Assembly: GCA_023634235.1 (NCBI GenBank)
Contig: JAMKCF010000072.1
Span: 186,001-250,000, forward strand
Direction: 5' to 3'
Length of the DNA stretch: 64,000 nt
DNA from: Pisaster brevispinus
Lineage: Eukaryota; Echinodermata; Asteroidea; Forcipulatida; Asteriidae
Shown here piece by piece: positions 1 through 64,000 of this stretch; position 1 is the first letter of the stretch, and each line of letters starts with the position of its first letter. The notes below the pieces were generated by a model that was not told where the DNA came from, did not search any database, and was given only the letters and a program-made list of their open reading frames with translations. The translations under genes were made by a program, and so were the position numbers.

Positions 1-3000
1 GCGGTAACATCTCCAGTTGTGGTAGCACCATCGGTTGTAGTTACATCTGCAGTCGTTGTAGCTGCAGCTGTTGTAGTTAGATCTACAGTTGTGGTACCAC
101 CAGTTGTGGAAGTTACATCTGCTGTTGTGTTTACATCAGCAGTTGTGGTACCATCTGCAGTTGAGGTAGTTTCAGCTTGTGTAGTTACATCTACAGTTGT
201 ATTAACATCTGCAGTTGAGGATACACCAGCTGTTGTGGTATCATCTGCCATTGCGGTTGCCTCAGCTATTGTTGTTACTTCTGCAGTTGTGCTAGCTTCA
301 GTTGTGGAAGTTACATCTGCAGTTGTGGAAACTTCAGCTTTTGTAGTTACATCTACAGTTGTAGCTACATCTGCAGTTGTGGTTACACCAGCTGTTGTGG
401 TGACATCTGCAGTTGTGGTAGCTGCAGTTGTGGTAGTTACATCTGCAGTTGTGGTAGCTCCAGTTGTGGTAGTAACATCTGCAGTTGTGGTAGCTAAAGT
501 TGTGGTAGTTACATCAGCAGTTGTGGTTACACCAGCTCTTGTGGTAACATCTGCAGTTGTGGTAGCCTCAGCTGTTGTAGTTACATCTGCAGTTGTGGTA
601 GCTTCAGCTTTTGAAGTTACATCTGCAGTTGTAGTTACATCTGCAGTTGTGATTACACCAGCTGTTGTGGTAGCATCTGCTGTTGTGGTAGCCTCATCTG
701 TTGTGATTACATCTACAGTTGTAGTTACATCTGCAGTTGTGGTTACACCAGCTTTTGTGGTAACATCTGCAGTTGTGGTTACACCAGCTGTTGTGGTGAC
801 ATCTGCAGTTGTGGTAGCCTTAGCTGGTGTAGTTAGATCTACAGGCGTGCTAGCTTCAGCTGATGTAGTTACTTCTGCAGTTGTGGTAGTTTTAGTTGTG
901 GTAGTTACATCTGCGGTGGAAAATTCAGCCTTTGTAGTTACATCTACAGTTGTAGCTTCATCTGCAGTTGTGGTTACACCAGCTGTTGTGGTGACATCTG
1001 AAGTTGTGGTAGCTCCAGTTGTGGTAGTTACATCTGCAGTTGTGGTTACACCGGCTCTTGTGGTAACATCTGCAGTTGTGGTAGTTACATCTGCAGTTGT
1101 GGTAGCTCCAGTTGTGGTAGTTACATCTGCAGTTGTGGTTATACCAGCTGTTGTGGTGACAACTGCAAATGTGGTAGACTCAGCTGGAGTAGTTAGATCT
1201 ACAGTTTTAGTTACATCTGCAGTTGTGATTACATATGCAGTTGTGGTAACTTCAGCTTGTGTTCTAATATCTACAGTTGTATTAACATCTGCAGTTGTGG
1301 GTACACCAGCTGTTGTAGTTACATGTGCAGTTGTGGTAGCTCCAGTTGTGGTAGTTACATCTGCAGTTGTGGTTACACCAGCTCTTGTGGTATCATCTGC
1401 AGTTGTGGTAGCTTCAGTTGGGGAAGTTACATCTGCAGTTGTGGAAACTTCAGCTTTTGTAGTTACATCTACAGTTGAAGCTACATCTGCAGTTGTGGTT
1501 ACACCAGCTGTTGTGGTGACATCTGCAGTTGTGGTAGCTCCACTTGTGATAGTTACATCTGCAGTTGTGGTTACACCAGCTCTTGTGGTAACATCTGCAG
1601 TTGTGGTAGTTACATCTGCAGTTGTGGTAGCTCCAGTTGTGGTAGTTACATCTGCAGTTGTGGTTACACCAGCTCTTGTGGTAACATCTGCAGTTGTGGT
1701 AGCTCCAGTTGTGGTTGTTACATCAGCAGTTGTGGTTAAATCAGCTCTTGTGGTAACATCTGCAGTTGTGGTAGCCTCAGCTGTTGTAGTTACATCTGCA
1801 GTTGTTGTAGCTTCAGCTTTTGAAGTTACATCTGCAGTTGTAGTTACATCTACCATTGTGATTACACCAGCTGTTGTGGTAGCATCTGCTGTTGTGGTAG
1901 CCTCAGCTGTTGTAGTTACATCTACAGCTGTAGTTACATCTGCAGTTGTTGTAGCTTCTGCTTTTGAAGTTACATCTGCAGTTGTAGTTACATCTGCAGT
2001 TGTGATTACACCAGCTGTTGTGGTAGCATCTGCTGTTGTGGTAGCCTCATCTGTTGTAGTTACATCTACAGTTGTAGTTAAACCAGGTGTTGTGGTAACA
2101 TCAGCTGTTGTGGTGACATCTGCAGTTGTGGTAGCCTCAGCTGGTGTAGTTAGATCTACAGTTTTAGTTACATCTGCAGTTGTGGTAACATCTGCAGTTG
2201 TGGTAGCTTCAGCTTGTGTAGTTACATCTACAGTTGTATTAACATCTGCAGTTGTGGGTACACCACCTGTTGTAGTTACATCTGCAGTTGTGGTAACTCC
2301 AGTTGTTGTAGTTACATCTGCAGTTGTGCTAGCTTCGGCTGTTGTAGTGACGTCTGCAGTAGTGGCAGCTTCAGCTGGTGTAGTTAGATCTACAGTTTTA
2401 GTTACATATGCTATTGTGGTTACATCTGCAATTGTGGTAGCTTCATCTGTTGTAGTTATAACTACAGTAGTTACATCTGCAGTTGTGGTTACACCAGCTG
2501 TTAAGGTAACATCTGCAGTTGTGGTAGCTCCAGTAGTTGTAGTTACATCTGCAGTTGTGGTTACACCAGCTCTTGTGGTAACATCAGCAGTTGTGGTAGC
2601 CTCAGCTGTTGTGATTACATCTGCGGTTGTTTTAGCTTCAAGTTTTGAAGTTACATCTGCAGTTGTAGTTACATCTGCAGTGGTGATTACACCAGCTGTT
2701 GTGGTAACATCTGCTGTTGTTGTAGCCTCATCTGTTGTAGTTACCTCTACAGTTTTAGTCACATCTGCAGTTGTTGTAACATCTGCAATTGTGAGTACAC
2801 CAGCTGTTGTAGTTACATCTGCAGTTGTGCTAGCTTCAGCTGTTGTAGTTACATTTGCAGTTGTGGTAGCTCCAGTTGTGGTAGTTACATCTGCAGTTGT
2901 GGTTACACGAGCTCTTGTGGTAACATCTGCAGTTGTGGTAGCCTCAGCTGTTGTAGTTACATCTGCAGTTGTGGTTACATCAGCTGTTGTGGTGACATCT

Positions 3001-6000
3001 GCTGTTGTGGTAGCCTCAGCTGGTGTAGTTAGATCTACAGTTTTAGTTACATCTGCAGTTATGGTAACATCTGCAGTTGTGGTAGCTTCAGCTTGTGTAG
3101 TTACATCTACAGTTGTATTAACATCTGCAGTTGTGGGTACACCATCTGTTGTAGTTACATAGGCAGTTGTGGTAACTCCAGTTGTAGTTACATCTGCAGT
3201 TGTGCTAGCTTCGGCTGTTGTAGTGACGTCTGCAGTAGTGGCAGCTTCAGCTGGTGTAGTCAGATCTACAGTTTTAGTTACATGTGCAGTTGTGGTTACA
3301 TCTGCAATTGTGGTAGCTTCATCTGTTGTAGTTACATCTACAGTTGTGGTTACACCAGCTGTTAAGGTAACATCTGCAGTTGTGGTAGCCTCAGCTGTTG
3401 TAGTTACATCTACGGTTGTAGGTACATCTGCATCTGTTGTAGCTTCAGCTTTTGAAGTTACATCAGCTGTTGTGGTAGCATCTGCTGTTGTTTTAGCTTC
3501 ATCTGTTGTAGTTACATCTACTGTTGTAGTTACATCTACAGTTGTGGTTACACCAGCTGTTAAGGTAACATCTGCAGTTGTGGTAGCCTCAGCTGTTGTA
3601 GTTACATCTGCAGTTGTGATTACACCAGCTGTTGTGGTAGCATCTGCTGTTGTGGTAGCCTCATCTGTTATTGTTACATCTACAGTTGTAGTTACATCTG
3701 CAGTTGTGGTTACATCAGCTGTTGTGGTGACATCTGCAGTTGTGGTAGCCTCAGCTGGTGTAGTTAGATCTACAGTTTTAGTTACATCTGCAGTTATGGT
3801 AACATCTGCAGTTGTGGTAGCTTCAGCTTGTGTTGTTACATCTACAGTTGTATTAACATCTGCAGTTGTGGGTACACCACCTGTTGTAGTTACATCTGCA
3901 GTTGTGGTAACTCCAGTTGTTGTAGTTACATCTGCAGTTGTGCTAGCTTCGGCTGTTGTAGTGACGTCTGCAGTAGTGGCAGCTTCAACTGGTGTAGTTA
4001 GATCTACAGTTTTAGTTACATGTGCAGTTGTGGTTACATCTGCAATTGTGGTAGCTTCATCTGTTGTAGTTACATCTACAGTTGTGGTTACACCAGCTGT
4101 TAAGGTAACATCCGCAGTTGTGGTAGCCTCAGCTGTTGTAGTTACATCTACGGTTGTAGGTATTTCTGCAGTTGTAGCTTCAGCTTTTGAAGTTACATCA
4201 GCTGTTGTGGTAGCATCTGCTGTTGTGGTAGCTTCATCTGTTGTAGTTACATCTACTCTTGTAGTTACATCTGCAGTTGTGGTTACAAGAGCTGTTAAGG
4301 TAACATCCGCAGTTGTGGTAGCCCCATCTGTTGTAGTTATATCTGCAGGTTTTGTAGCTGCAGCTGTTGTAGTTACATCTGCAGTTGTGGAAACTTCAGC
4401 TTTTGTTGTTACATCTACAGTTGTAGCTACATCTGCAGTTGTGGTTACACCAGCTGTTGTGGTGACATCTACAGTTGTGGTAGCCTCAGCTATTGTAGTT
4501 ACATCTGCAGTTGTTGAAGCCTCAACTATTGTAGTGACGTCTGCAGTAGTGGCAGCTTCAGCTGGTGTAGTTAGATCTACAGTTTTAGTTACATGTGCAG
4601 TTGTGGTTACATCTGCAATTGTGGTAGCTTCATCTGTTGTAGTTACATCTACAGTTGTAGTTACATCTGCAGTTGTAGTTACATCTGCAGTGGTGATTAC
4701 ACCAGCTGTTGTGGTAACATCTGCTGTTGTTGTAGCCTCATCTGCTGTAGTTACCTCTACAGTTTTAGTCACATCTGCAGTTGATGTAACATCTGCAATT
4801 GTGGGTACACCAGCTGTTGTAGTTACATCTGCAGTTGTGCTAGCTTCAGCTGTTGTAGTTACATTTGCAGTTGTGGTAGCTCCAGTTGTGGTAGTTACAT
4901 CTGCAGTTGTGGTTACACGAGCTCTTGTGGTAACATGTGCAGTTGTGGTAGCCTCAGCAGTTGTGCTAGCTTCGGCTGTTGTAGTGACGTCTGCAGTAGT
5001 GGCAGCTTCAGCTGGTGTAGTTAGATCTACAGTTGTAGTAACATGTGCAGGTGTGGTTACATCTGCAATTGTGGTAGCTTCATCTGTTGTAGTTACATCT
5101 ACAGTTGTAGTTACATCTGCAGTTGTGGTTACACCAGCTGTTACGGTAACATCTGCAGTTGTAGCTTCAGCTTGTGTAGTTACATCTACAGTTGTATTAA
5201 CATCTGCAGTTGTGGGTACACCACCTGTTGTAGTTACATCTGCAGTTGTGGTAACTCCAGTTGTTGTAGTTACATCTGCAGTTGTGCTAGCTTCGGCTGT
5301 TGTAGTGACGTCTGCAGTAGTGGCAGCTTCAGCTGGTGTAGTTAGATCTACAGTTTTAGTTACATGTGCAGTTGTGGTTACATCTGCAATTGTGGTAGCT
5401 TCATCTGTTGTAGTTACATCTACAGTTGTGGTTACACCAGCTGTTAAGGTAACATCCGCAGTTGTGGTAGCCTCAGCTGTTGTAGTTACATCTACGGTTG
5501 TAGGTACATCTGCAGTTGTAGCTTCAGCTTTTGAAGTTACATCAGCTGTTGTGGTAGCATCTGCTGTTGTGGTAGCTTCATCTGTTGTAGTTACATCTAC
5601 TCTTGTAGTTACATCTGCAGTTGTGGTTACACCAGCTGTTAAGGTAACATCCGCAGTTGTGGTAGCCCCATCTGTTGTAGTTACATCTGCAGTTGTTGAA
5701 GCCTCAACTATTGTAGTGACGTCTGCAGTAGTGGCAGCTTCAGCTGGTGTAGTTAGATCTACAGTTTTAGTTACATGTGCAGTTGTAGTTACATTTGCAG
5801 TTGTGGTAGCTCCAGTTGTGGTAGTTACATCTGCAGTTGTGGTTACACGAGCTCTTGTGGTAACATGTGCAGTTGTGGTAGCCTCAGCAGTTGTGCTAGC
5901 TTCGGCTGTTGTAGTGACGTCTGCAGTAGTGGCAGCTTCAGCTGGTGTAGTTAGATCTACAGTTGTAGTAACATGTGCAGGTGTGGTAGCCTCAGCCGTT

Positions 6001-9000
6001 GTAGTTACATCTGCAGTTGTGATTACACCAGCTGTTGTGGTAGCATCTGCTTTTGTGGTAGCCTCATCTGTTGTAGTTACATCTACAGTTGTTGTTACAT
6101 CTGCAGTTGTGGTTACATCAGCTGTTGTGGTGACATCTGCAGTTGTGGTAGCCTCAGCTGGTGTAGTTAGATCTACAGTTTTAGTTACATCTGCAGTTGT
6201 GGTAACATCTGCAGTTGTGGTAGCTTCAGCTTGTGTAGTTACATCTACAGTTGTATTAACATCTGCAGTTGTGGGTACACCACCTGTTGTAGTTACATCT
6301 GCAGTTGAGGTAACTCCAGTTGTTGTAGTTACATCTGCAGTTGTGCTAGCTTCGGCTGCTGTAGTTACATTTGCAGTTGTGGTAGCTCCAGTTGTGGTAG
6401 TTACATCTGCAGTTGTGGTTACACCAGCTCTTGTGGTAACATCTGCAATTGTGGTAGCTCCAGTTGTGGTAGTTACATCTGCAGTTGTGGTTACACGAGC
6501 TCTTGTGGTAACATCTGCAGTTGTGGTAGCCTCAGCTGTTGTAGTTACATCTGCAGTTGTGATTACACCAGCTGTTGTGGTAGCATCTGCTGTTGTGGTA
6601 GCCTCATCTGTTGTACTTACATGTACAGTTGTAGTTACATCTGCAGTTGTGGTTACATCAGCTGTTGTGGTGACATCTGCAGTTGTGGTAGCCTCAGCTG
6701 GAGTAGTTAGATCTACAGTTTTAGTTACATCTGCAGTTGTGGTAACATCTGAAGTTGTGGTAGCTTCAGCTTGTGTAGTTACATCTACAGTTGTATTAAC
6801 ATCTGCAGTTGTGGGTACACCACCTGTTGTAGTTACATCTGCAGTTGTGGTAACTCCAGTTGTTGTAGTTACATCTGCAGTTGTGCTAGCTTCGGCTGTT
6901 GTAGTGACGTCTGCAGTAGTGGCAGCTTCAGCTGGTGTAGTTAGATCTACAGTTTTAGTTACATGTGCAGTTGTGGTTACATCTGCAATTGTGGTAGGTT
7001 CATCTGTTGTAGCTATATCTACACTTGTAGTTACATCTACAGTTGTGGTTACACCAGCTGTTAAGGTAACACCTGCAGTTGTGGTAGCTCCAGTTGTTTT
7101 AGTTACATCTGCAGTTGTGGTTACACCAGCTCTTGTGGTAAAATCTGCAGTTGTGGTACCCTCTGCTGTTGTAGTTACATCTGCGGTTGTTGTAGCTTCA
7201 ACTTTTGAAGTTACATCTGCAGTTGTAGTTACATCTGCAGTGGTGATTACACCAGCTGTTGTGGTAACATCTGCTGTTATTGTAGCCTCATCTGTTGTAG
7301 TTACCTCTACAGTTTTAGTCACATCTGCAGTTGTTGTAACATCTGCAGTTGTGAGTACACCAGCTGTTGTAGGTACATCTGCAGTTGTTGTAGCTTCAGC
7401 TTTTGAAGTTACATCAGCTGTTGTGGTAGCATCTGCTGTTGTGGTAGCTTCATCTGTTGTAGTTACATCTACTGTTGTAGTTACATCTGCAGTTGTGGTT
7501 ACACCAGCTGTTAAGGTAACATCCGCAGTTGTGGTAGCCCCATCTGTTGTAGTTATATCTGCAGGTTTTGTAGCTGCAGCTATTGTAGTTACATCTGCAG
7601 TTGTGGAAACTTCAGCTTTTGTTGTTACATCTACAGTTGTAGCTACATCTGCAGTTGTGGTTACACCAGCTGTTGTGGTGACATCTGCAGTTGTGGTAGC
7701 CTCAGCTATTGTAGTTACATCTGCTGTTGTTGAAGCCTCAACTATTGTAGTGACGTCTGCAGTAGTGGCAGCTTCAGCTGGTTTAGTTAAATCTACAGTT
7801 TTAGTTACATGTGCAGTTGTGGTTACATCTGCAATTGTGGTAGCTTCATCTGTTGTAGTTACATCTACAGTTGTAGTTACATCTGCAGTTGTGGTTACAC
7901 CAGCTGTTAAGGTAACATCCGCAGTTGTGGTAGCCCCATCTGTTGTAGTTACTTCTGCAGTTTTAGTTACATCAGCTGTTGTGGTAGCATCTGCTGTTGT
8001 GGTAGCTTCATCTGTTGTAGTTAAATCTACTGTTGTAGTTACATCTGCAGTTGTGGTTACAGCAGCTGTTAAGGTAACATCTGCAGTTGTGGTAGCCTCA
8101 GCTGTTGTAGTAACATCTGCAGTTGTGATTACACCAGCTGTTGTGGTAGCATCTGCTGTTGTGGTAGCCTCATCTGTTGTAGTTACATCTACAGTTGTAG
8201 TTACATCTGCAGTTGTGGTTACATCAGCTGTTGTGGTGACATCTGCTGTTGTGGTAGCCTCAGCTGGTGTAGTTAGATCTACAGTTTTAGTTACATCTGC
8301 AGTTATGGTAACATCTGCAGTTGTGGTAGCTTCAGCTTGTGTAGTTACATCTACAGTTGTATTAACATCTGCAGTTGTGGGTACACCACCTGTTGTAGTT
8401 TCATCTGCAGTTGTGGTAACTCCAGTTGTTGTAGTTACATCTGCAGTTGTGCTAGCTTCGGCTGTTGTAGTGACGTCTGCATTACTGGCAGCTTCAGCTG
8501 GTGTAGTTAGATCTACAGTTTTAGTTACATGTGCAGTTGTGGTTACATCTGCAATTGTGGTAGCTTCATCTGTTGTAGTTATATCTACAGTTGTAATAAC
8601 ATCTGCAGTTGTGGTTACACCAGCTGTTAAGGTAACATCTGCAGTTGTGGTAGCTCCAGTTGTTGTAGTTACATCTGCAGTTGTGGTTACACCAGCTCTT
8701 GTGTTAACATCTGCAGTTGTGGTAGCCTCAGCTGTTGTAGTCACATCTGCGGTTGTTGTAGCTTCAATCTTTGAAGTTACATCTGCAGTTGTAGTTACAT
8801 CTGCAGTGGTGATTACACCAGCTGTTGTGGTAACATCTGCTGTTGTGGTAGCCTCATCTGTTGTAGTTACATCTACAGTTGTAGTTACATCTGCAGTTGT
8901 GGTTACATCAGCTGTTGTGGTGACATCTGCAGTTGTGGTAGCCTCAGCTGGTGTAGTTAGATCTACAGTTTTAGTTACATCTGCAGTTGTGGTAACATCT

Positions 9001-12000
9001 GCAGTTGTGGTAGCTTCAGCTTGTGTAGTTACATCTACAGTTGTATTAACATCTGCAGTTGTGGGTACACCACCTGTTGTAGTTTCATCTGCAGTTGTGG
9101 TAACTCCAGTTGTTGTAGTTACATCTGCAGTTGTGCTAGCTTCGGCTGTTGTAGTGACGTCTGCATTACTGGCAGCTTCAGCTGGTGTAGTTAGATCTAC
9201 AGTTTTAGTTACATGTGCAGTTGTGGTTACATCTGCAATTGTGGTAGCTTCATCTGTTGTAGTTATATCTACAGTTGTAATTACATCTGCAGTTGTGGTT
9301 ACACCAGCTGTTAAGGTAACATCTGCAGTTGTGGTAGCTCCAGTTGTTGTAGTTACATCTGCAGTTGTGGTTACACCAGCTCTTGTGTTAACATCTGCAG
9401 TTGTGGTAGCCTCAGCTGTTGTAGTTACATCTGCGGTTGTTGTAGCTTCAATCTTTGAAGTTACATCTGCAGTTGTAGTTACATCTGCAGTGGTGATTAC
9501 ACCAGCTGTTGTGGTAACATCTGCTGTTGTGGTAGCCTCATCTGTTGTAGTTACATCTACAGTTGTAGTTACATCTGCAGTTGTGGTTACATCAGCTGTT
9601 GTGGTGACATCTGCAGTTGTGGTAGCCTCAGCTGTTGTAGTTAGATCTACAATTTTAGTTACATCTGCAGTTATGGTAACATCTGCAGTTGTGGTAGCTT
9701 CAGCTTGTGTAGTCACATCTACAGATGTATTTACATCTGCAGTTGCGGGTACACCACCTGTTCTAGTTACATCTGCAGTTGTGCTAGCTTCGGCTCTTGT
9801 AGTGACGTCTGCAGTAGTGGCAGCTTCAGCTGGTGTAGTTAGATCTACAGTTTTAGTTACATGTGCAGTTGTGGTTAAATCTGCAATTGTGGTAGCTTCA
9901 TCTGTTGTAGTTACATCTACAGTTGTAGTTACATCTGCAGTTGTGGTTACACCAGCTGTTAAGGTAACATCCGCAGTTGTGGTAGCCCCATCTGTTCTAG
10001 TTATATCTGCAGGTTTTGTAGCTGCAGCTGTTGTAGTTACATCTGCAGTTATGGTTACATCAGCTGTTGTGGTGACATCTGCAGTTGTGGTAGCCTCAGC
10101 TGGTGTAGTTAGATCTACAGTTTTAGTTACATCTGCAGTTGTGGTAACATCTGCAGTTGTGGTAGCTTCAGCTTGTGTAGTTACATCTACAGTTGTAATA
10201 ACATCTGCAGTTGTGGGTACACCACCTGTTGTAGTTACATCTGCAGTTGTGATAACTCCAGTTGTTGTAGTTACATCTGCAGTTGTGCTAGCTTCGGCTG
10301 CTGTAGTTACATTTGCAGTTGTGGTAGCTCCAGTTGTGGTAGTTACATCCGCAGTTGTGGTTACACCAGCTCTTGTGGTAACATCTGCAGTTCTGGTAGC
10401 TCCAGTTGTGGTAGTTACATCTGCAGTTGTGGTAGAACGAGCTCTTGTGGTAACATCTGCAGTTGTGGTAGCCTCAGCTGTTGTAGTTACATCTGCAGTT
10501 GTGATTACACCAGCTGTTGTGGTAGCATCTGCTGTTGTGGTAGCCTCATCTGTTGTAGTTACATCTACAGTTGTAGTTACATCTGCAGTTGTAGTTACAT
10601 CAGCTGTTGTGGTGACATCTGCAGTTGTGGTAGCCTCAGCTGGTGTAGTTAGATCTACAGTTGTATTAACATCTGCAGTTGTGGGTACACCACCTGTTGT
10701 AGTTACATCTGCAGTTGTGGTTACTCCAGTTGTTGTAGTTACATCTGCAGTTGTGCTAGCTTCGGCTGTTGTAGTGACGTCTGCAGTAGTGGCAGCTTCA
10801 GCTGGTGTAGTTAGATCTACAGTTTTAGTTACATGTGCAGTTGTGGTTACATCTGCAATTGTGGTAGCTTCATCTGTTGTAGTTATATCTACAGTTGTAA
10901 TTACATCTGCAGTTGTGGTTACACCAGCTGTTAAGGTAACATCTGCAGTTGTGGTAGCTCCAGTTGTTGTAGTTACATCTGCAGTTGTGGTTACACCAGC
11001 TCTTGTGTTAACATCTGCAGTTGTGGTAGCCTCAGCTGTTGTAGTTACATCTGCGGTTGTTGTAGCTTCAACATTTGAAGTTACATCTGCAGTTGTAGTT
11101 ACATCTGCAGTGGTGATTACACCAGCTGTTGTGGTAACATCTGCTGTTGTTGTAGCCTCATCTGTTGTAGTTACCTCTACAGTTTTAGTCACATCTGCAG
11201 TTGTTGTAACATCTGCAATTGTGAGTACACCAGCTGTTGTAGTTACATCTGCAGTTGTGCTAGCTTCAGCTGTTGTAGTTACATTTGCAGTTGTGGTAGC
11301 TCCAGTTGTGGTAGTTACATCTGCAGTTGTGGTTATACGAGCTCTTGTGGTAACATCTGCAGTTGTGGTAGCCTCAGCTGTTGTAGTTACATCTACAGTT
11401 GTAGTTACATCTGCAGTTGTGGTTACATCAGCTGTTGTGGTGACATCTGCAGTTGTGGTAGCCTCAGCTGGTGTAGTTAGATCTACAATTTGAGTTACAT
11501 CTGCAGTTATGGTAACATCTGCAGTTGTGGTAGCTTCAGCTTGTGTAGTCACATCTACAGTTGTATTTACATCTGCAGTTGCGGGTACACCACCTGTTCT
11601 AGTTACATCTGCAGTTGTGCTAGCTTCGGCTCTTGTAGTGACTTCTGCAGTAGTGGCAGCTTCAGCTGGTGTAGTTAGATCTACAGTTTTAGTTACATGT
11701 GCAGTTGTGGTTACATCTGCAATTGTGGTAGCTTCATCTGTTGTAGTTACATCTACAGTTGTAGTTACATCTGCAGTTGTGGTTACACCAGCTGTTAAGG
11801 TAACATCCGCAGTTGTGGTAGCCCTATCTGTTGTAGTTATATCTGCAGGTTTTGTAGCTGCAGCTGTTGTAGTTACATCTGCAGTTATGGTTACATCAGC
11901 TGTTGTGGTGACATCTGCAGTTGTGGTAGCCTCAGCTGGTGTAGTTAGATCTACAGTTTTAGTTACATCTGCAGTTGTGGTAACATCTGCAGTTGTGGTA

Positions 12001-54000: not shown

Positions 54001-57000
54001 TCTGCAGTTGTAGTAGCCTCAGCAATTGTAGTTACATCTTTAGTTGTGGTAGCTTCAGCTGTGGTAGTTACATCTGCAGTTGTAGTTACTTCTTCAGTTG
54101 TGGTTACATCAGCTGTAGTGGTAACATCTGCAGTTGTAGTAGTCTCAGCTGTTGTAGTTACATCTGCAGTTGTGCTAGCTTCAGCTGTTGTAGTTACATC
54201 TGCAGATTTGGTAGTTCCAGTTGTGGTAAATACATCTGCAAATGTTGTTACATCTGCAATTGTGGTTACACCAGCTGTTGTGGTAATATCTGCAGTTGTA
54301 GTAGCCTCAGCTGTTGTAGTAACATCTGAAGTAGTGGTAGCTTCAGCTGTGGTAGTTACATCTTCGGTTGTAGCTTCATCTGTAGTTGTGGTTACATCAG
54401 CTGTTGTGGTAATATCTGAAGTTGTGGTAGTTTCAGCTGATGTAGTTAGATCTACAGTTGTAGTTACATCTGCAGTTATGGTCACATCTTCAGTTGTGGT
54501 TACATCAGCTGTTGTGGTAATATCTGTCGTTTTGGTAGCTTCAGCTGAGGAAGTTAAATCTCTAATAGTGGTAGCTTCAGCTGTTGTAGTTATATCTGCA
54601 GATGTAGTTACATCTTCAGTTGTGGTTACATCAGCTGTTGTGGTAGCCTCATCTTTTGTAGTTACATCTGCTGTTGCAGTAGCTTCATATGTTGTAGTTA
54701 CATCTGAAGTAGTGTTAGCTTCAGATGTGGTAGTTATATCTGCAGTTGTAGTTACATCTGCAGTTGTGGTTACACCAAATGTTGAGGTAACATCCGCAGT
54801 TGTGGTAGCTTCGTCTTTTGTAGTTACATCTGCAGTTGTTGTAGCTTCAGGTGTTGTAGTTACATCTTCGGTTGTAGTTACATCTGTAGTTGTGGTTACA
54901 TCAGCTGTTGTGGTAATATCTGAAGTTGTGGCAGTATCAGCTATTGTAGTTACATCTGCAGTTGTTGTAGCTTCAGCTGCTGTAGTAAGATCTTCAGTTG
55001 TAGTTACATCAGCAGTTGTGGTAGCTTTAACAGTGGAAGTTACATCTGCAGTAGCAGTTTCATCTGCAGTTGTAGTTACACCAGCTGTTGTGGTAATATC
55101 TGTCGTTTTGGTAGCTTCAGCTAAAGTAGTTAAATCTCCAATAGAGGTAGCTTCAGCTGTTGTAGTTACATCTGCAGTTGTAGTTACATCTGCAGTTGTG
55201 ATTACACCAGCTGTTGAGGTAACATCTGCTGTTGTGGTAGCCTCATCTTTTGTAGTTACATCTACAGTTGTAGTTACATCTGCAGTTCTGTTTACACCAG
55301 CTGTTGTGGTAACATCCGCAGTTGTAGTTACATCAGCAGTTGTGGTTTCACCAGCTGTTGTGGTAACATCTGCAGTTGTGGTAGCCCCATCTGTTGTAGT
55401 TATATCTGCAGTTTTTGTAGCTGCAGCTGTTGAAATTACATCTGCAGTTGTGAAAACTTCAGCTTTTGTAGTTACATATACATTTGTAGCTTCATCTGCA
55501 GATGTGGTTACACCAGCTGTTGTGGTGACATCTGCCGTTGTGGTAGCTTCAAAAATTGTAGTTACATCTGCAGTTGTGGTATGTTTAGCTGTCGTTGTTA
55601 CATCTGCAGTTGTGGTTACATCTGAAGTGACATCTGCAGTTGTTGTAGCTTCCGCAGTTGTTGTGACATCCACATTTGTTGTATTTTCGGCAGTTGTACT
55701 TACATCTGCTGTTGTGGTAGCTTGAACTGTCGTATTTATATCTGCAGTTGTAGTAGCTTCAGCTGTTGAAGTTTCAGCTGCTGTAATTAGATCTACAGAT
55801 TTAGTTACATCTACAGTTGTGCTAGCTTCAGCTGTTGTAGTTACATCTGCAGTTGTGGTAGCTTCAGCTGTTGTAGTTACATTTGCAGTTGTGGTAGCTT
55901 CAGCTGTTGTAGTTACATTTGCAGTTGTAGCTTCAGCTTTTGAAGTTACATCTGCAGTTGTAGTTACATCGGCAGTTGTGATTACCCCAGTTGTTGTGGT
56001 AGCATCTGCTGTTGTGGTAGCCCCATCTGTTGTAGTTTTATCTACAGTTGTAGTTACATCTGCAGTTGTGGTTACATCTGCAGTTGTAGTAGCCTCAGCT
56101 GTTGTAGTTACATCTGCAGTTGTTGTAGCTTCAGCTTTTGTGGTAACATCTTCTGTTGTGGTAGCCTCATCTGTTGTAGTTACATCTACAGTTGTAGTTA
56201 CATCTGCAGTTGCAATTACACCAGCTGTTGTGGTAACAGCCGCAGTTTTAGTTACATCTGCAGTTGTGGTTACACCAGCTGTTGTGGTAACATCTGCAGT
56301 TGTAGTAGTCCCATCTGTTGTAGTTATATCTGCAGTTGTTGTAGCTTTAGCTTTTGAAGTTACATCTGCAGTTGTAGTTACATCTGCAGTTGTGGTTACT
56401 CCAGCTGTTGTGGTAACATCTGCCGTTGTGGTGGCCTCAGTTATTGTAGTTACATCTACAGTTGTAGTTACATCTGCAGTTGTGGTGTCTTCAGCTGTGG
56501 TAGTTAAATCTGCAGTTGTAGTTACATCGGCAATTTTGGTTACACCAGCTGTTGTGGTAACATTTGCAGTTGTGGTAGCTTCAGCTGTTGTAGTTACATC
56601 TGCAGTTGTGGTAGCTTCAGCTGTTGTGGTTTCACCAGCTGTTGTGGTTATATCTGCAATTGTGGTAGCTTGAGATGTTGTAGTTACATCTGCAGTTGTG
56701 GTAGTTTCAAGTGTTGTAGTTAGATCTACAGTTGAAGTTACATCTGCAGTTGTTGTAGCTTCAGCTGTTGTAGTTACATCTGCAGTTACGGTAGCTTGAG
56801 ATGTTGTAGTTACATCTGCAGTTGCGGTAGCTTGAGATGTTTTAGTTACTTCTGCAGTTCTGGTAGCTTCAGCTGTTGTGGTTACTTCCGCACTTTTTGA
56901 GGCATTAGCAGTTGTAGATATCTCTGGAGTTGTAGCCTCAGCAGTTGTGGTTAAATCAACAGTTGAGGTAGCCTCTGTTGTTGTGGTTACATTTACAGTT

Positions 57001-57028
57001 GATATTGCCTCAGCTGTTGTATATACAT
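1..57028 (-). CDS. Giant Thr-rich mucin-like repeat protein, downstream exon (3' end outside window)
   Basis: On the minus strand this stretch reads as one continuous frame of about 19,000 codons. It is made of six-residue units such as TTTADV, TTTAEA and TTTAGV, usually alternating as a 12-residue (36 bp) pair. Thr is about half of all residues; Asp or Glu recurs about every sixth position; Cys, Trp and Pro are rare or absent. I read 54483-57038, 15661-16440 and 16801-16920 codon by codon and found no stop. The repeat phase never shifts between 1 and 57028, and no frame in this register terminates inside it. The frame is closed just upstream by TAA at 57041-57039, inside the intron. Composition suggests a densely O-glycosylated secreted or surface mucin-type domain; this is inference from composition, not a recognised family. 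No signal peptide, membrane segment, VWD, SEA or Cys-knot domain lies in the window. The main alternative, a non-coding satellite, is disfavoured by the unbroken frame and the phase-matched intron. Confidence 0.8.
8266..9633. repeat. 684-bp tandem duplication
   Basis: Two near-identical 684-bp copies lie at about 8266-8949 and 8950-9633. They share two rare markers exactly 684 bp apart: GCATTACTGGCAGC (the ATTACT part at 8481 and 9165) and GCTTCAATCTTTGAAG (8761 and 9445). Differences are few, for example GTAATAAC against GTAATTAC. 684 is 19 x 36, so 228 residues were added in frame. Confidence 0.88.
9540..13211. repeat. 1,836-bp tandem duplication
   Basis: Copies lie at about 9540-11375 and 11376-13211. 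Markers 1,836 bp apart include AGTCACATCTAC at 9711 and 11547 and the GATCTACAATT unit near 9643 and 11479. 1,836 is 51 x 36, so the event added 612 residues in frame. One difference, T to G at 11492, creates a stop in the antisense Val-rich frame but only Lys to Gln in the Thr-rich minus frame. Confidence 0.88.
15700..16875. repeat. Diverged repeat segment between zones A and B
   Basis: Units here are unusually varied, with CTGAGC, TTGAGC, CCAGGTGTG and GGCGGTAGC variants. The antisense frame is broken several times (about 15709, 15955, 16366, 16834). I read nearly all of the Thr-rich minus frame through this stretch and it stays open. A near-duplicate block with the marker GCAGCTTCCGAAGTTGTT occurs near 16324 and 16792. 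It looks like an old, little-homogenised part of the array. Confidence 0.6.
17881..18168. repeat. 144-bp tandem duplication
   Basis: Two adjacent 144-bp copies (17881-18024 and 18025-18168) share the rare units TTGCACCATCTCTTGTGG and TCTGCAAATGTGGTAGCC. The length is 8 x 18 bp, adding 48 residues. Confidence 0.85.
19508..21065. repeat. 810-bp tandem duplication with a 72-bp deletion in the second copy
   Basis: Markers TGGTAACATC at 19511 and 20321 and TGGTACCTCC at 19601 and 20411 are 810 bp apart. A later marker, CAGCAGCTGTTGAGG, is at 20201 and 20939, only 738 bp apart, so the second copy lost 72 bp (4 x 18). Single-base differences such as CCAACTCTTG against CCAAGTCTTG separate the copies. 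The reading frame is kept. Confidence 0.85.
28348..31569. repeat. 1,611-bp tandem duplication inside the first full 5,292-bp copy
   Basis: Copies lie at 28348-29958 and 29959-31569. The junction shows where GCATCTTCAGTTGT switches to CGTAGCTCCAGTTG at 29961, against CATCTTCAGTTGTGGTAG at 31559 in an uninterrupted copy. 1,611 is 179 x 9 bp, equal to 537 residues. Confidence 0.88.
33640..36861. repeat. 1,611-bp tandem duplication inside the second full 5,292-bp copy
   Basis: This is the same 1,611-bp duplication as at 28348-31569, displaced by exactly 5,292 bp, with the same junction at about 35253. The identical junction means the 1,611-bp event came first and the whole 5,292-bp block was amplified afterwards. 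Confidence 0.88.
41271..41522. repeat. 126-bp tandem duplication
   Basis: The marker ACCAACTGTTCTGG with ATCTGAAGATTTGG occurs at 41271 and 41397, 126 bp (7 x 18) apart. Single copies of the same block recur inside zone C near 45974 and 49307, so this unit also seeded the neighbouring array. Confidence 0.8.
41600..53100. repeat. Zone C: higher-order array built on 843-bp units
   Basis: A variant unit, GCTGTTGTGTAAACATCTGC, marks copies with TAA at 42121, 43000, 45124, 46390, 48514, 50032, 50875 and 51718. Spacings are 879, 2,124, 1,266, 2,124, 1,518, 843 and 843 bp. 879 is 843 + 36, and 2,124 + 1,266 = 3,390 recurs as a compound period. The two 2,124-bp copies differ at only a few bases (for example 44115 against 47505). 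The last two 843-bp copies appear identical in translation. In the Thr-rich minus frame the TAA-bearing unit simply encodes Tyr at a Thr position. Confidence 0.9.
53101..57028. repeat. Zone D: diverged, weakly homogenised repeat next to the intron
   Basis: From about 53.1 kb to the intron the hexads persist but long identical blocks vanish, and unit variants (GCTAGTG, GGAGTTG, ACTTTTTGAGGC, AATTTTTT) become frequent. I read 54483-57028 triplet by triplet and the minus-strand frame is open throughout. The last units before the acceptor read VYTTAEAISTVNVTTT in the protein direction. Terminal divergence of this kind is usual where unequal exchange homogenises the centre more than the ends. Confidence 0.7.
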
Positions 57029-57060
57029 CTGCAATTTTTTAATATGAAACAGATCTGAAT
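57029..57060 (-). other. Splice acceptor (3' splice site)
   Basis: Minus-strand sequence ends AAAAAATTGCAG|ATGTATATAC, with the AG at 57030-57029 and the exon starting at 57028. Use of this AG restores the Thr-rich frame in phase with the donor. The pyrimidine tract is weak (CTGTTTCATATT, then an A run). The next AG upstream, in ATTCAG|ATCTG, is 26 bases away and would be out of frame. The phase match is the main support. Confidence 0.6.
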
Positions 57061-58142
57061 GTTTGCTTTATGCGTTCACTTATTATTGTTTTTATTCTGT
57101 GTACTTAATTTTGTTCTATAATTTTCCCAGCAATCATAAATTTGCTTTTCTTTTATTATTAGGTTGATAGTGGCTTATCCAATCGCACATTGCTTTGCTG
57201 GTGCTTGGTAATCACATTGGGGCCTACGATTCTGCTTGAATGTGCTTGATTTGAGTTCTTACTGTCTATTGCGTTTTTTGTGAATAGCTAACAATTGTGC
57301 TTTTACAGCTTTATGAAATGTTTACCGTTTGTGCAATGAAAATACGTTTTTTCAACTGTTTTTGATGAGCATCGAGCATTTCACAAAATGAGTACTTTTA
57401 CTGACAGCGCCTTTTTTATTCTTGCAACTAACGTGATTCCCTCCGTCGCCTTTTTCAATTACAAAGTGTTCAAATACTGCATAATGCTTGATTTGTCTAA
57501 ATTTGTAAAAACGTATTTGTATAAATTTATTTTTGCCCATAGCAACCATTTACCTTTTGTGGCTATGACGTTTAATGCGATGCCTCGATTTGTACTTGTA
57601 CTTACGAAATTAACTGTTTAAAACAATTTCTCAATGTGTTTATTTTTGTTGACACATCCCAATGTCGTGAATTCTTTTTCCAGTCTCCGTTGATGGTCAC
57701 GTTTTCAGAATGGGGCCCTCATTGTCCATAGAGGTTTCAGTCATGATGATGCATACCAACAAGTAGATGATGAAGTGAAGACTGTAATGGGTTTCTTATG
57801 AATGTGTTAAAACAGATGACATGGTTAATGAAATGATAATTTGAAAAACAAAGTAATATGTTTCATAAAGCTGGAATAATATTAAATGATTTATTTCAAT
57901 ATTAGGCCTACTTAATAAACATATACAATGACACTATGTCCATTACCCTTTTAAAAAACTGAAAACACATGTTCCTTGATAAATATTTACGGAAAAAATC
58001 ATTTTAAAACGAAGAATAAATTCAGGAAGAAATATATTTTGTGTAATGTTTTATCCCAGTAAAAATCATTTTCTGTTATATTCTTGATACTTTGCTGTGT
58101 TTGTGAATCCCTTCAATTTAATTACTTGTTATTTCTCAGTCT

Positions 58143-58526
58143 CTTAACCCTATCAGGGTAGGGAGAGGCGCGGACATTATACCCCTCCCATATTTTGTAT
58201 TTATGCTGCATCCAATCGCCACCAATTCTTTGCTTTTCCCCAAAAAAGGTGAACCCATTAAAAGAATAAATTATATTTTTAAAGAAATATATCTTAAAGA
58301 ACATTTTGTCACAAAATAAGGATTTTTTACTTACCAAAATTACGACTTTCTTCGGAGAGGATGGGGGAATTGTATTGTTTACAGAGAGAAACTCACATAA
58401 ACTTTTATAAAATCAGCTAGGCCATGTGCTTTGAAAAAAAATGAGGTGGCGAAGTTTGCGGTCCGCCCCCCACAACCACAACCAACCGGTCTCCGTCATG
58501 AACAAAGCCCGGTCCTTGAAGGGTTA
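58143..58526. mobile_element. Possible small non-autonomous element with imperfect inverted ends
   Basis: The left end reads TTAACCCTATCAGGG. The right end, reverse-complemented, reads CTAACCCTTCAAGGA, about 11 of 15 matching. The interior is mixed: AT-rich with a GC-rich patch GCGGTCCGCCCCCCAC near 58459. Such ends resemble small DNA-transposon derivatives in animal genomes, but I see no clear target-site duplication, so this is a weak call. Confidence 0.2.
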
Positions 58527-60200
58527 GTTTCTGTTTTTGTGTTTTTGTGTTCTCTTTCATGGCTGCATTGACTGTATGGCTATACATCTCGGTATATGTA
58601 CATGTATATTGTGATTAGTTTGCCTTGTAACGTTGTAATTCAGTTTTAAGAGTATTGTTCAATTTTTAATGCTCATAAGCACAGTGTGATGGATCAGAAT
58701 GATGAACCTCAGAAATCTATCATCAATGATATCATTTTGTGATAGCAGCCATGGAAAAGTTTTTACCCACTACCACAACCTAAACTACCGGGTGCACATG
58801 TGCAAAGTGGGTGTGGATTTCGTTTTTAAAAGTAAACTCGAAGCGTTTGCATGTGCTACAAGTATTAAGAAAGAACTATCATAAACGCAATGACATTATG
58901 AGTTAAGTTAAACTTTGTATACTTAAAGAGCGGTGTAACAATCGAAATTATGTTCGACCACAGATGAGGTTAGTAGTTAACGTGTGTTAACGTGAGTCGG
59001 TTGATGGGAGGGACTGGCATCGTCTTTTGTGAAACGTGCAGTGAAAGTTAATAGAGTCGGTGATTGTTGAAACAATCTTTGCCTTTGAGAATGACCAAGA
59101 CGAAAACGATAAGGATTAAATACAGCACAGCAACATTCAAAAACCGAGTGCATTTCACTCAAACAGAACGTGCATAATGGTAGCATTGTTAATATGAGTT
59201 TAATTAATGAAATTGTCAGTTAAAGTTATAATGAGCAGGGAAAATAATCACGATGAAATAATGATGCCGAAAAAAGTGTCAGTTTAATTTAGCTTGACAA
59301 CAATGCAAGTGTTTTGATACATTAACGTTGATCTTATTTAACATCTTTTGAAAAAAGTCTGAGTGTAAAAGGAAGAGGTTAATAAAAAGTGCACAAAAAA
59401 CTAGTAATGCGTTTATATATATAAAAAAATTGCGGATAATTTTGATATGGATTTTGTGAAACAAATTTCAGAAAATTCAACAAAAAAATACGCTCATTTT
59501 CAGATCACGAAGGGCATTATATTAACATGAAAGTGTAGAAATGTGTTACGTGCAATAGTTAAGTGCGCATTTAAATCAAAATGAGGTTCAAATAATTCAA
59601 TAGATTCAAAAGCAATTAAGTGATGACAATTATTATGAAATGCTTTCTTGTGTTTCTGTCTGCTCACAACAACAGTTTATCCCCGGCAACAAGATGGTTT
59701 GAATTACACTATCCCTAAACTGACTAAATCTAATCCAAAGTTAAAATTCAAACTAACTTGACCAGAGATAGTTACTGCACACCATCCAAGTGTCATTTTG
59801 TAACAGCTTTAATGAAATCCGGCGATACAATTAATTGCACACAGCCCTGGGTTGCGTACATTCTGTGGACATTCTTTTATTCTGTACACTTCAGAAAAAC
59901 TTTTTTTCCAACATTCATGAAAATATTGTGCGGACGTGTGTAACTCCACGAAGTGTCACAGGTTCCTACATTATGTATGGAGCTTTTTTGTTCTTAAATC
60001 CACAATTCGTACGTAACACTTCAACAGACAAACACACGCTTTATTGCTGCGCTTAAGTGCTCTTTTCCACAGAATTCCTAGAATTACTAGAAAACGTCTT
60101 TCTTAAAAAAGGATGTGTAACGCTTCTAGCGATGGTACGATTGAGATCAATGTTACACGCTACAAACTGTAGATGATAATATTGTAAATCTCTGTTAAAT

Positions 60201-60209
60201 ACTGACCTG
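60201..60209 (-). other. Splice donor (5' splice site)
   Basis: Minus-strand sequence is ACATCAG|GTCAGT, with the exon ending at 60207 and the intron starting at 60206. CAG|GT followed by CAGT fits the metazoan donor consensus except at the A usually found at +3. It lies exactly where the repeat coding ends. If unspliced, the frame continues as GQYLTEIYNIIIYSL and stops at about 60160, losing all repeat character. Confidence 0.72.
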
Positions 60210-63200
60210 ATGTCATTTGTATATCTACTGTTGTGGTAGCTTCAGCACTTGTTTTTAAATCAGCAGTTGTTTTTGCACCAGCTGATGTAGTTACATCTGT
60301 AGTTGTGGTAGCCTGAGCTGTTGTAGTTAGGTCGGCGGTAGTGGTAAACTCAGCTGCAGTGGTTTCATCCGCCGTAGTAGTTGAACGAGCTGGTGTAATT
60401 ACATCTGCAGTTGTGGTAGTTACTTCTCCTGTGGCTAACTCTGCAGTTGTAAATTCAGCTGTTGTGTTAGCCTCATCTGCTGTAGTTACTGCCGCAGTTG
60501 TTGTGACCTCAGCTAATGAAGTCAAATCAGCAGTTGTGGTAGCCTCAGCACCAGATGTAGTTAAATCTACAGTAGTTGCAGCTGCTGCTGTTACGGTAAC
60601 AATTGTAGTTGTAGCTTTATCAGTTGTAGTAGCCTCAGCTGATGAAGTAATATCCGCAATTGTGGTAGCTTCAGCTATTGTGGTAACATCTGCTGTGGTG
60701 GTAGCCTCATCTGTTGTAGTTACATCTGCACTTTTAGTTAAATTTGCAGTTATGGTAGCTTCTGCAGTTGTGGTTATATCTGCTGTTGTGGTAGCTTGAG
60801 TTGTAGCTACATCCGCAGTTGTTAAAGCTGTTTTAGTTAAATTTACAGTTGTAGTTAGATCTACAGTTGTGGTAGCTTCAGCTGTGGTAGTTACATCCGC
60901 AGATGTGGTAGTTTCAGCTGTTGTAGAGACATATGCAGTTGTGGTAGCTTCAGCAAATGTAGTTACATCTGTAGTTGTAGCTTTAGCTGTTGTAGAAATA
61001 TCTGCAGCTCTGGTATCTTCAGAGATTGTAGTTACGTCAGCAGTTGTAGTTAGTTCTGCATTTATGGTAGCTTCAGCTGTTTTGGTTAAAGCAGAAGTTG
61101 TGGTAACATCTACTGTTGTGGTAGCCTGAGCAGTTGTGGTGACATCCACAGTTGTACCTTCGGCAGTTGTACTTACATTTGCCGTAGAGGTAGCTCCAGC
61201 TGTTGTAGTTAAATCAACCGTTGTAGTTACATCTTCAGTTGTGGTTACCACAGCTGTTGTAGTTACATCTGCAGTTGTGGTAGCTTCAGATGTTGCAGCT
61301 ACATCTGAAGTTGTGATAGCTTCAGGTGTTGTGGTTAGGTCTACAGTTGTAGTTAAATCTGCAGTTGTGGTAACACCAGCTGTTGTAATAACATCCGCAG
61401 TCGTAGTTACATCTGCAGTTGTGATAACACCAGCTGTTGTTGTAACATCTAAAGTTGTGGTAGCTTCATCTGTTCTAGTTACATCTGCAGTTGAGGTAGC
61501 TTCAGCTGTTGTAGTTAGATAATCAGTTGTGGTTACATCTGCAGTTGTGGTTACACCATCTGTTGTGGTAACATCTGCAGTTGTGGTAGCCTCATCTGTT
61601 GTTTTTACATCTGCAGTTGTGGTAGCTTCAGCTGTTGTTGTTACATCTGCAGTTGTGGTAGCTTCAGCTGTTGTAGTGAGATCTTCAGTTGTAGTTACAT
61701 TAGCAGATGTGGTTAAATCTACAGTTGTTGTTACACTTGCAGTTGTGATAGTCAAATCTGTTGTAGTTACATCTGCAGTTTTGGTAGCCTCAGCTGTTGT
61801 AGTTACATCTGCAGTTGTGGTAGCTTCAGCTGTTGTAGAGAGATCTTCAGTTGTGCTTACATTAGCAGATGTGGTTAAATCTGCAGTTGTTGTAACATCT
61901 GCAGTTGTGGTAGCCTCAGCTGTTGTAGTTACATCTGCAGTTGTGGTAGCCTCAGCTGTTGTAGTTACATCTGCAGTTGTGGTAGCTTCAGCTGTTGTAG
62001 TGAGATCTTCAGTTGTACTTACATTAGCAGATGTGGTTAAATCTGCAGTTGTTGTAACATCTGCAGTTGTGGTAGCCTCATCTGTTGTAGTTACATCTGC
62101 AGTTGTGGTTACACCAGCTGTTGTGGTAACATCTGCCGTTGTGGTTACACCAGCTTTTGCAGTAACATATGCTCTTGTGGTAGCCTTAGCTGTTGTAGTT
62201 ACATCTGTAGTTGTGGTAGCGTCAGCTTTTGTAGTTACATCTGCAGTTGTAGTTAAATCTGAAGTTGTGGTTATACCAGGTGTTGTAGTAACATCTGCAG
62301 TTGTGGTAGCTTCAGCTTGTGTAAGTAGATCTACAGTTGTAGTAATATCTGCAGTTGTGGTTACACCAGCTGTTGTGGTAACATCTGCCGATGTGGTAGC
62401 CTGAGCTTTTTTAGTTACATCTTCAGTTGTGGTAGCTTCACCTGTTGTAGTTACATCTACAGTTGAAGTTACATCTGCAGTTGAAGTTACATCTGCAGTT
62501 GTGGTTACACCAGCTCTTGTAGTATCATCTGTTGTTGATGTAGCTTCAGCTGTTTTAGTTAGATCTACAGTTGTAGTTACATCTGCAGTTGTGGTTACTT
62601 CAGCTGTTGTGGTAACATCTGCCGTAGTGTTAGCCTCAGCTTTTGAAGTTACATCTGCAGTTGTGGTAGCCTCAGCTATAATAGTTACATCTGCAGTTGT
62701 GGTAGCCTCAACTGTTGTGGTAACATCTGCAGTTTTGGTAGCCTCAGCTGTTGTAATTACATCTGCAGTTATGGTAGCTTCAGGTGTTGTAGTGAGATCT
62801 TTAGTTGTGGTAGCCTCATCTTTTGTTGTTACATATGCAGTAGTGGTAGCCTCAGCTGTTGTGGTAACATCTGCAGGTTTGGTAGCTTCAGCTGTTATAG
62901 TTACATCTGCAATTGTGGTAGCTTCAGCTGTGGTAGTTAAATCTGCAGTTGTAGTTACATCTGCAGTTTTGCCTAAACCAGATGTTCTGGTAACATCTGC
63001 AGTTGTGGTAGCCTCAGCTGTTGTAGTTAAATCTACAGTTTTAGTTACACTTGCAGTTGCAGTAGCCTCATCTGTTGTATATACATCTGCAGTTGTGGAA
63101 GCTTCAGCTGTGGTAGTTACATCTTCAGTTGTAGTTACACCTGCAGTTGTGATTACACCATCTGTTGTGGTTACATCTGCAGTTGTGATAGCCTCATCTG

Positions 63201-64000
63201 TTGTTATTACATCTGCAGTTGTAGTAGCTTCAGCTGTTGTAGTTACATCTACAGTTGTAGTTACATCTGCAAATGTGGTTGCATCTGCAGTTGTGATTAC
63301 AACAGCTGTTGTAGTATCATCTGCAGTTGATGTAGCTTCAACTGTTTTAGTTAGATCTACAGTTGTAGTTACATCTTCAGTTGTGGTTACTTCAGCTGTT
63401 GTGGTAACATCTGCCGTAATGGTAGCCTCCGCTGTTGTACTTACATCTACAGTTGTAGTTACATCTGCAGTTGTGGTTGCATCTGCAGTTGTGGTTACAC
63501 CAGCTGTTGTGGTAACATCTGCAGTTTTAGTATCCTCAGCTGTTGTAGTTACATCTGCAGTTGTGGTTACACCAGCTGTTGTGGTCACATCTGCAGTTTT
63601 GGAAGCCTCAGCTGTTGTAGTAACATCTGCAGTTGTGGTAGCTTCAGCTGTTGTAGTGAGATCTTCAGTTGTACTTACATTAGCAGATGTGGTTAAATCT
63701 GCAGTTGTTGTAACATCTGCAGTTGTGGTAGCCTCAGCTGTGGTAGTTACATCTTCAGTTGTAGTTACACCTGCAGTTGTGGTTACACCATCTGTTGTGG
63801 AAACATCTGCAGTTGTGATAGCCTCATCTGTTGTTATTACATCTGCAGTTGTAGTAGCTTCAGCTGTTGTAGTTACATCTACAGTTGTAGTTACATCTGC
63901 AAATGTGGTTGCATCTGCAGTTGTGATTACACCAGCTGTTGTAGTATCATCTGCAGTTTTAGTATCCTCAGCTGTTGTTGTTACATCTGCAGTTGTGGTT
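60207..64000 (-). CDS. Giant Thr-rich mucin-like repeat protein, upstream exon (5' end outside window)
   Basis: The minus strand is open from the window edge at 64000 to the splice donor at 60206, about 1,264 codons. Its hexads are the same as in the downstream exon (TTTADV, TTTAEA, TTTAGV, with TVDLT variants). I read 63589-64000 codon by codon and saw no stop, so the frame enters from outside the window and no start codon should be assigned here; a GTG at 63588 is only an internal Val codon. Near the donor the repeat decays: the last residues are TTTVDIQMTS, then one base of a split codon. Units here are more varied than in the central arrays, with Lys, Ile, Leu and Phe replacements, and include three 162-bp copies and a 630-bp duplication. 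The role is inferred as the N-terminal side of the same mucin-like domain. The antisense Val-rich frames here break at 60797, 61127, 61520 and 62402, which supports the minus strand as coding. Confidence 0.78.
61681..62166. repeat. 162-bp higher-order repeat, three copies
   Basis: The block starting ATCTTCAGTTGT, followed by TACATTAGCAGATGTGG, begins at 61681, 61843 and 62005, exactly 162 bp (9 x 18) apart, which is 54 residues. Another copy begins at 63661. Small differences (TGTAGTTAC, TGTGCTTAC, TGTACTTAC) show the copies are diverging. Confidence 0.85.
63121..64000. repeat. 630-bp duplication in the upstream exon (second copy runs off the window)
   Basis: The block ATCTTCAGTTGTAGTTACAC begins at 63121 and again at 63751, 630 bp (35 x 18) apart. 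The two stretches then share the order of several rare units, including GATAGCCTCATCTGTTG and TGCAAATGTGGTTGC. The second copy extends towards the window edge. Differences include GATTACACC against GGTTACACC. Confidence 0.8.

Follow-up and report, generated by a model that had tools for sequence, protein, structure and literature searches.

A threonine-rich hexad array in the sea star Pisaster brevispinus and its probable place in a MUC4-type transmembrane mucin gene

Does an array of 18-nt units that runs for tens of kilobases without a stop codon encode protein, and, if so, how long is the chain to which it belongs? The question is raised by a stretch of 64,000 nucleotides from Pisaster brevispinus, referred to here as the window, which occupies positions 186001-250000 of contig JAMKCF010000072.1 (C72). 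The source genome comprises 549.7 Mb in 512 contigs. C72 spans 470,022 nt, and its positions 120001-430000, 450001-470022 and 1-800 were examined. On the reading favoured here, the window would lie within the mucin region of a single, very large gene on the minus strand that encodes a membrane-anchored mucin of the MUC4 type. In what follows, the coding status of the array and the family of the gene emerge as highly probable, and the joining of all its exons into one chain as considerably less certain.

The open minus-strand frame and its protection from stops

Exact translation of the minus strand gives a frame that opens at window position 57038, directly behind a TAA, and runs off the left edge after 19,012 codons with no stop; a second open frame extends from the right edge to 60160. 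Spliced together (64000-60207, 3,794 nt, to 57028-1, 57,028 nt), they form 60,822 nt and 20,273 codons in a single frame, again with no stop. The first-pass annotation, made from the sequence alone, had proposed two such stop-free exons encoding a giant Thr-rich, mucin-like protein of at least about 20,270 residues and roughly 2 MDa before glycans, and had named in-frame stops between 57028 and 1 as evidence that would speak against it. That stretch contains none, and the chain of the window computes to 2.007 MDa. It consists of 43.1% Thr, 16.9% Ala, 11.5% Val, 14.9% Asp plus Glu, 2.7% Ser and 0.9% Pro, lacks Cys and Trp, has a pI of 4.05, and can be phased into 3,122 complete hexads.

An open frame alone proves little at this locus, since stops are rare in the unit whichever strand is read and 80% of the bases of the window's array lie within 60-mers that recur in the window. 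Stops were counted on each strand against a null model in which each base column of the hexad was shuffled. In the non-homogenised parts (window 53000-57028, 15000-18990 and 60207-63999; 3,936 codons), the minus strand contains 0 stops against 7.7 expected, a count reached by none of 1000 shuffles, and the plus strand contains 15 against 14.3. In seven array exons of C72 (49,539 codons in 21,284 distinct contexts, with the window's short exon included and the two largest other exons excluded), 1 stop occurs on the minus strand where 36.4 would be expected (no shuffle gave fewer than 21), and the plus strand has 76 against 71.3. Among 1,473 de-duplicated hexads of the whole array the minus strand shows 0 stops against 14.7 expected, but this version of the test overstates the protection because the plus strand also falls below its own null (14 against 27.5).

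Length differences between copies add to this evidence. In the overlapping block pair listed in Table 1, the lengths of the 13 distinct gaps are all multiples of 3, and 8 of them differ from 18 nt. Across ten block-pair alignments, one contains gaps of 1 and 17, which sum to 18, and the remaining gaps are all multiples of 3. Slippage of ACN triplets could favour such lengths, so the pattern supports a coding frame and does not prove one. Three other measures could not choose the strand. The entropy at codon positions 1, 2 and 3 (0.54, 0.81 and 1.16 bits) cannot do so because the wobble column is common to the plus frame; recent mutations included no nonsense change on either in-register strand; and a Fisher test on TAR and TAY codons gave p of about 0.001 for the minus strand and a smaller value still for the plus strand. 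AlphaFold2 models of 12 aligned 180-residue stretches of the array gave a predicted local distance difference test score of 39.6 with scattered strands, as would be predicted for a disordered chain; a beta-solenoid or ice-binding fold, considered for the six-residue period, was rejected on these models.

These results bear on two readings that would deny the minus frame. A non-coding satellite, open by chance because its 18-nt unit is stop-free, is in keeping with a unit poor in stops on both strands, with a plus frame in the homogenised core that meets no stop over 8,428 codons, and with the lack of recent nonsense mutations on both strands; yet stops are missing on the minus strand only, block-pair indels are multiples of 3, the introns keep a consistent phase, and mucin domains lie downstream, which makes a satellite very improbable. 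Even less credence can be given to a plus-strand protein of TSAVVV/ASAVVV repeats. It would draw on the same 8,428-codon frame and on a wobble column identical to that of the minus frame, but the best plus frame has 20 stops in the main array and 5 in the right part, and the plus-strand stops match the expectation without selection in the first two comparisons given above. We conclude with high confidence that the minus-strand coding array is real and protected, and that it lies within a MUC4-type transmembrane mucin gene.

Exons, stem domains and gene family

On C72, the Thr-rich region is divided among nine giant exons followed by a short tail exon (Table 1), together about 83,635 residues or 8.2 MDa, with phase-1 joins and an open end at the end of the contig. 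The window covers about a quarter of it, so that the length given in the first-pass annotation, accurate for the window, understated the size about four-fold. When seven exons are joined at GT-AG sites they give 66,882 codons with 1 stop, compared to 4,561 and 6,143 stops in the other two frames. Each complete internal exon with both ends read is a multiple of 3 in length and has phase 1 at its start and its end. The introns are of two types: type A, with three copies on C72 that are 85-92% alike, and type B, with five copies that share long stretches 88-99% alike. One type A copy is the intron of the window, which recurs at C72:280905-281712 (92%) and 317099-317834 (91%). The window junction (60206/57028) is in phase 1 and preserves the hexad register (VDI QMTS|DV YTTAEA). 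Of 80 GT x AG pairs tried around the exon edges, 10 gave open joins, so openness alone is no proof of this junction, which by eye is the best match to the donor consensus among the open joins.

Downstream of the array, the three minus frames of C72:120001-180000 were scanned with Pfam in 10-kb pieces. The first matches in order are VWD (2e-16), C8 (3e-10), TIL (3e-8), TILa (5e-7), EGF_3 and two LDLa, one of them below cut-off. These are followed by Sushi, EGF, EGF_CA, NIDO, a VWD piece and C8-3_MUC4 (1.3e-9, over cut-off), and further downstream by 5+6 and then 2+3+5 EGF_CA stretches. NIDO is split over three exon pieces at 155.3-156.9 kb, the best of which has E 2.1e-12 (47.9 bits; cut-off 25). 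GDPH occurs twice, once per VWD piece; the GDPH-bearing open reading frame (ORF) at C72:153533-153288 matches VWD at 0.00026 and 21.8 bits, just under the cut-off of 22.9 for this exon piece. At C72:130215-129721, a hydropathy of 3.17 across 21 residues, followed by RRRQAEARRR, points to a strongly hydrophobic transmembrane helix bordered by basic residues, with a tail behind it. The last array exon (AAG|GTACCG), the tail exon and the VWD exon can be joined in phase 1. The next gene recognised by Pfam past the stem is a P5A-ATPase near 123.4 kb.

The presence of NIDO, GDPH-bearing VWD pieces, C8-3_MUC4, EGF domains and a membrane helix downstream on the same strand argues that the gene very likely encodes a MUC4-type transmembrane mucin, an assignment made on sequence features. 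The giant mucin-like protein of the first-pass annotation is the best reading, given stop avoidance on the minus strand only and mucin-type domains downstream. The annotation had suggested extending the sequence on both sides in search of a signal peptide, an anchor and Cys-rich domains, and C72 supplied the latter two as a transmembrane helix and as VWD, C8, TIL and EGF domains. A secreted gel-forming mucin of the MUC2/MUC5 type was considered and rejected, as a transmembrane helix is present and the array stands directly behind the candidate signal peptide in our model. One VWD-C8-TIL unit is present on C72, but it follows the array; no cystine knot was matched in the scanned minus frames, and no Pfam domain in C23:5243001-5252000 on a second contig (C23, see below), so that no VWD-C8-TIL was seen ahead of the array there.

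Table 1. Positions of the array, its exons and introns, and its repeat blocks; plain numbers are window positions, and those with the prefix C72 are contig positions
Feature	Position	Strand	Remarks
Giant-exon part	1..57028	-	About 3,170 TTTADV/TTTAEA-type hexads; C72:243028-178172 (64,857 nt), 7.8 kb past left edge; 0 stops
Type A intron	57029..60206	-	C72:246206-243029; GT-AG, phase 1, 3,178 nt
3' part of upstream giant exon	60207..64000	-	C72:279254-246207 (33,048 nt); window part 0 stops
Splice donor CAG|GTCAGT	60205..60206	-	Junction sequence
Splice acceptor TTGCAG|AT	57029..57030	-	Junction sequence; pyrimidine tract weak
Homogenised core	20001..53000	.	62-100% of bases per 1-kb bin in 60-mers recurrent in window
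Overlapping block duplication	23854..41269	.	23854-35995 and 29164-41269; 95.3% identity; the 13 gaps are all multiples of 3
Array exon 1	C72:470022 (open, contig end)-457149	-	4,291 residues
Array exon 2	C72:450089-412815	-	12,425 residues; middle (430001-450000) covered by genome search, one 12,470-residue open frame
Array exon 3	C72:405979-370928	-	11,683 residues
Array exon 4	C72:364924-348890	-	5,344 residues
Array exon 5	C72:342312-328525	-	4,595 residues
Array exon 6	C72:323493-318640	-	1,617 residues
Array exon 7	C72:315481-282497	-	10,994 residues
Array exon 8	C72:279254-246207	-	11,015 residues; one in-frame TAG
Array exon 9	C72:243028-178172	-	21,618 residues; 64.9 kb
Tail exon	C72:177579-177418	-	53 residues

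Some further features of the locus were noted. The window intron has xCAG at both exon borders, resembling a short target-site duplication or protosplice site; the signal is weak because consensus splice sites have this appearance as well. Exon 4 has an acceptor unlike those of its sister exons, with a TAA microsatellite (C72:364925-364990) directly before it. The observed/expected ratio of CpG is 0.13 in the array (window 1-57028) and 0.84 in the intron (57041-60205); the depletion may stem from codon composition or gene-body methylation and was not used as evidence. NIDO has 74 matches in the genome. A single one is on C72, and C23 has three (1.67-1.87 Mb); many others lie on C27 (2.53-2.99 Mb, several in near-regular tandem), C16 and other contigs, forming a large NIDO gene family.

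The 5' end and the length of the chain

A genome search with an array piece returned 267 matches, and all among the matches listed lie on C72 or at C23:5251904-5273176, where the plus strand has one frame of 7,799 residues; for C23:5252001-5266000 the evidence comes from this search. The C23 array exon begins at 5250018 with a good acceptor in front of it. A 70-nt coding exon, MSTQKFKIFLAFLIGLIHLCITT, lies 3.9 kb upstream and ends in the matching phase, so that this candidate signal peptide, called by eye, would pass directly into the Thr-rich chain. Most simply, an assembly gap would have divided one gene of about 91,400 residues. The C23 exon then probably represents the start of the gene whose remainder lies on C72; for the signal peptide, the extension proposed earlier yielded a candidate on C23 and no start on C72.

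Several observations weigh against a single MUC4-type gene extending through all of these exons. A TAG interrupts the frame at C72:265222-265224, in the part of exon 8 that lies 5' of the window's portion and outside the window. The type A introns have acceptors with poor pyrimidine tracts, and some ORFs of the 3' region match introns, in one case over 25 residues and otherwise at a repeat around C72:126.7-127.1 kb. The stem exons were placed by domain matches rather than by a full gene model. Of the 9.8 kb that separate the tail exon from the VWD exon (at C72:167611), the part within 170-177 kb matches no Pfam domain (none in the scan of C72:170001-180000), and additional exons are possible in between. 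The AMOP match between NIDO and VWD is partial (E 0.0099, 16.5 bits against a cut-off of 25), and SEA appears as two halves in consecutive ORFs, both below cut-off (E 0.1 and 0.039). In the proline-threonine-serine composition test on 100-residue windows of the window's chain, Ser plus Thr reach 40% in 1,978 of 2,018, and Pro reaches the usual mucin threshold of 5% in 0 of 2,018 (0.89% overall). Missense changes among recent mutations are only mildly depleted (283 against a type-matched 423, flank 12), as expected for a disordered chain. Finally, the array ends of C23 and C72 are 83-87% alike, with no exact overlap.

The length of the chain therefore has to be weighed separately from its identity. 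Nearly an even chance attaches to the view that the exons are real, but that the TAG, alternative splicing or several promoters yield shorter Thr-rich mucins and no single giant. The TAG lies about 55,630 residues from the contig end, so that about 28,000 residues of the array and the entire stem come after it, and the symmetric phase-1 exons could be skipped with no shift in frame. Yet the approximately 28,000 array codons behind the TAG contain 0 stops and thus appear to have been translated until recently, so that the TAG is young, or an assembly error, or bypassed by skipping exon 279254-246207. Moreover, when 519 ORFs from the 3' region, together with the signal peptide, were compared with the eight introns, no match recognisable as a domain or signal-peptide exon appeared. 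A somewhat lower probability attaches to the view that the C23 array belongs to another gene, a mucin paralogue, or to an allele, and is not the beginning of the C72 gene. Besides the imperfect likeness of the array ends, a G-rich minisatellite found at C72:1-146 and C23:5273277-5273500 (87% over 114 nt), and nowhere else in the sequence examined, points the same way on C72 and on C23, an arrangement that a reversed C72 would not produce. However, C23 has a start but no NIDO match near 5.27 Mb, C72 has an end but no start, and both array ends sit at an assembly break, the one on C23 running into a 100-N gap at 5273177. That one transcript joins all exons and yields one membrane-anchored mucin with a minimum length of 83,600 residues (about 91,400 with C23), or 8 to 9 MDa before glycans, is a tentative proposal drawn from genomic sequence, to which we assign somewhat less than an even chance.

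Known systems, array growth and implications

Relatives of the array were sought by several routes. A 1,000-residue array query gave 8 weak Thr-rich matches (E 2e-17 to 2e-4; copepod, annelid, horseshoe crab and lancelet among them), a 400-residue region of a 3,000-residue query matched, at E 2e-33, a single protein from a shrimp in which a Thr/Pro unit of 12 residues is repeated, and a third homologue search found none among 456 candidates scored. TTTADV is absent from all 9 matched proteins. Residue-shuffled queries gave no match and hexad-order shuffles gave lower scores, the latter an imperfect control in that hexads were cut regardless of phase. In our judgement the Thr-rich matches reflect convergent composition. 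No relatives were confirmed in viral or prokaryotic contigs or in phages, and the array had no match in the PDB or in Rfam. LED_rpt (E 0.0003, 21 bits against a cut-off of 59) and DUF6964 (E 0.89) were rejected on array pieces as below cut-off. No mention of TTTADV was found in the open-licence papers searched, nor was a comparable gene found among the matches listed there for giant Thr-rich repeat proteins, giant genes or exons, and MUC4/NIDO. The earlier remark that no described family has this hexad thus holds for the repeat in the literature and database matches searched, but the MUC4-type architecture has been described.

MUC4 has the domain order NIDO-AMOP-VWD-EGF-transmembrane, with no SEA in the human protein (PMC9080433), and is putatively cleaved at GDPH (PMC8660890). 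Human MUC4 and cnidarian mucin4-like proteins share with the C72 gene giant Thr-rich repeats, NIDO, a GDPH-bearing VWD, C8-3_MUC4, EGF domains, a transmembrane helix and a tail (PMC9080433, PMC8660890), and would share a signal peptide if C23 is the 5' end; where they have AMOP, the C72 gene has a weak match below cut-off. The possible, weak SEA would set the C72 gene apart from human MUC4. Different here are the repeat region of about 83,600 residues, spread over nine or more giant exons as opposed to one, the proline-poor TTTADV hexads, the extra VWD-C8-TIL-LDLa-Sushi modules and the more than 20 EGF_CA stretches. MUC12 differs from the C72 gene in architecture, having SEA and no known NIDO. 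Like the C72 gene it is a transmembrane mucin with a giant coding repeat exon. Its longest human alleles extend to 23,080 residues, and the exon concerned is described as the largest coding one of some human genomes (PMC13345508). Its giant exon is single and its total length about one quarter of the C72 chain; the 64.9-kb exon is probably of the order of that of MUC12 and not longer, with nine giant exons here in series. Drosophila mucins reach 23,000 residues and likewise have Ser/Thr-rich repeats, some lacking proline and termed mucin-related (Mur), but the authors report no transmembrane mucins, and a NIDO-AMOP-VWD stem goes unmentioned in the available part of the paper (PMC2515642).

The array appears to have grown by copying of hexads, of blocks up to about 5.3 kb, and of whole exon-plus-intron modules. 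The likeness among type A and among type B introns indicates that such modules were copied, and the 1-1 phase of the exons means that module copies leave the frame intact. Higher-order blocks were also observed inside the main exon, at window 23854-41269 and 42001-50300, with offsets of about 5.3 and 3.4 kb.

If the model is correct, the chain would enter the secretory pathway, and its Thr triplets would bear dense O-linked N-acetylgalactosamine glycans. The acidic residues between the triplets may keep it stretched out as a bottle-brush that would measure many micrometres. Cleavage at GDPH in the VWD domains, as proposed for MUC4, would divide the protein into the mucin subunit and an EGF-rich stem in the membrane, after which the subunit would remain attached or be shed.

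The longest proteins known are PKZILLA-1 (about 45,200 residues) and titin (about 35,000), which resemble the proposed chain in extreme length and differ from it in being a multidomain enzyme and a muscle protein and not low-complexity mucin chains. A single chain of the proposed length would be nearly twice the longest of these and would shift the limit of protein length by that factor. At the 0.25 nm per residue assumed in the first-pass annotation it would exceed 20 micrometres, one molecule at the scale of a cell, and its translation might last hours. The gene would then be a direct test of transcription, splicing, translation and secretion with a quarter-megabase coding sequence. It also offers a clean case of mucin growth by hexads, blocks and whole phase-1 exon-intron modules, and, since short-read annotation easily misses such genes, more of them may exist in long-read genomes.

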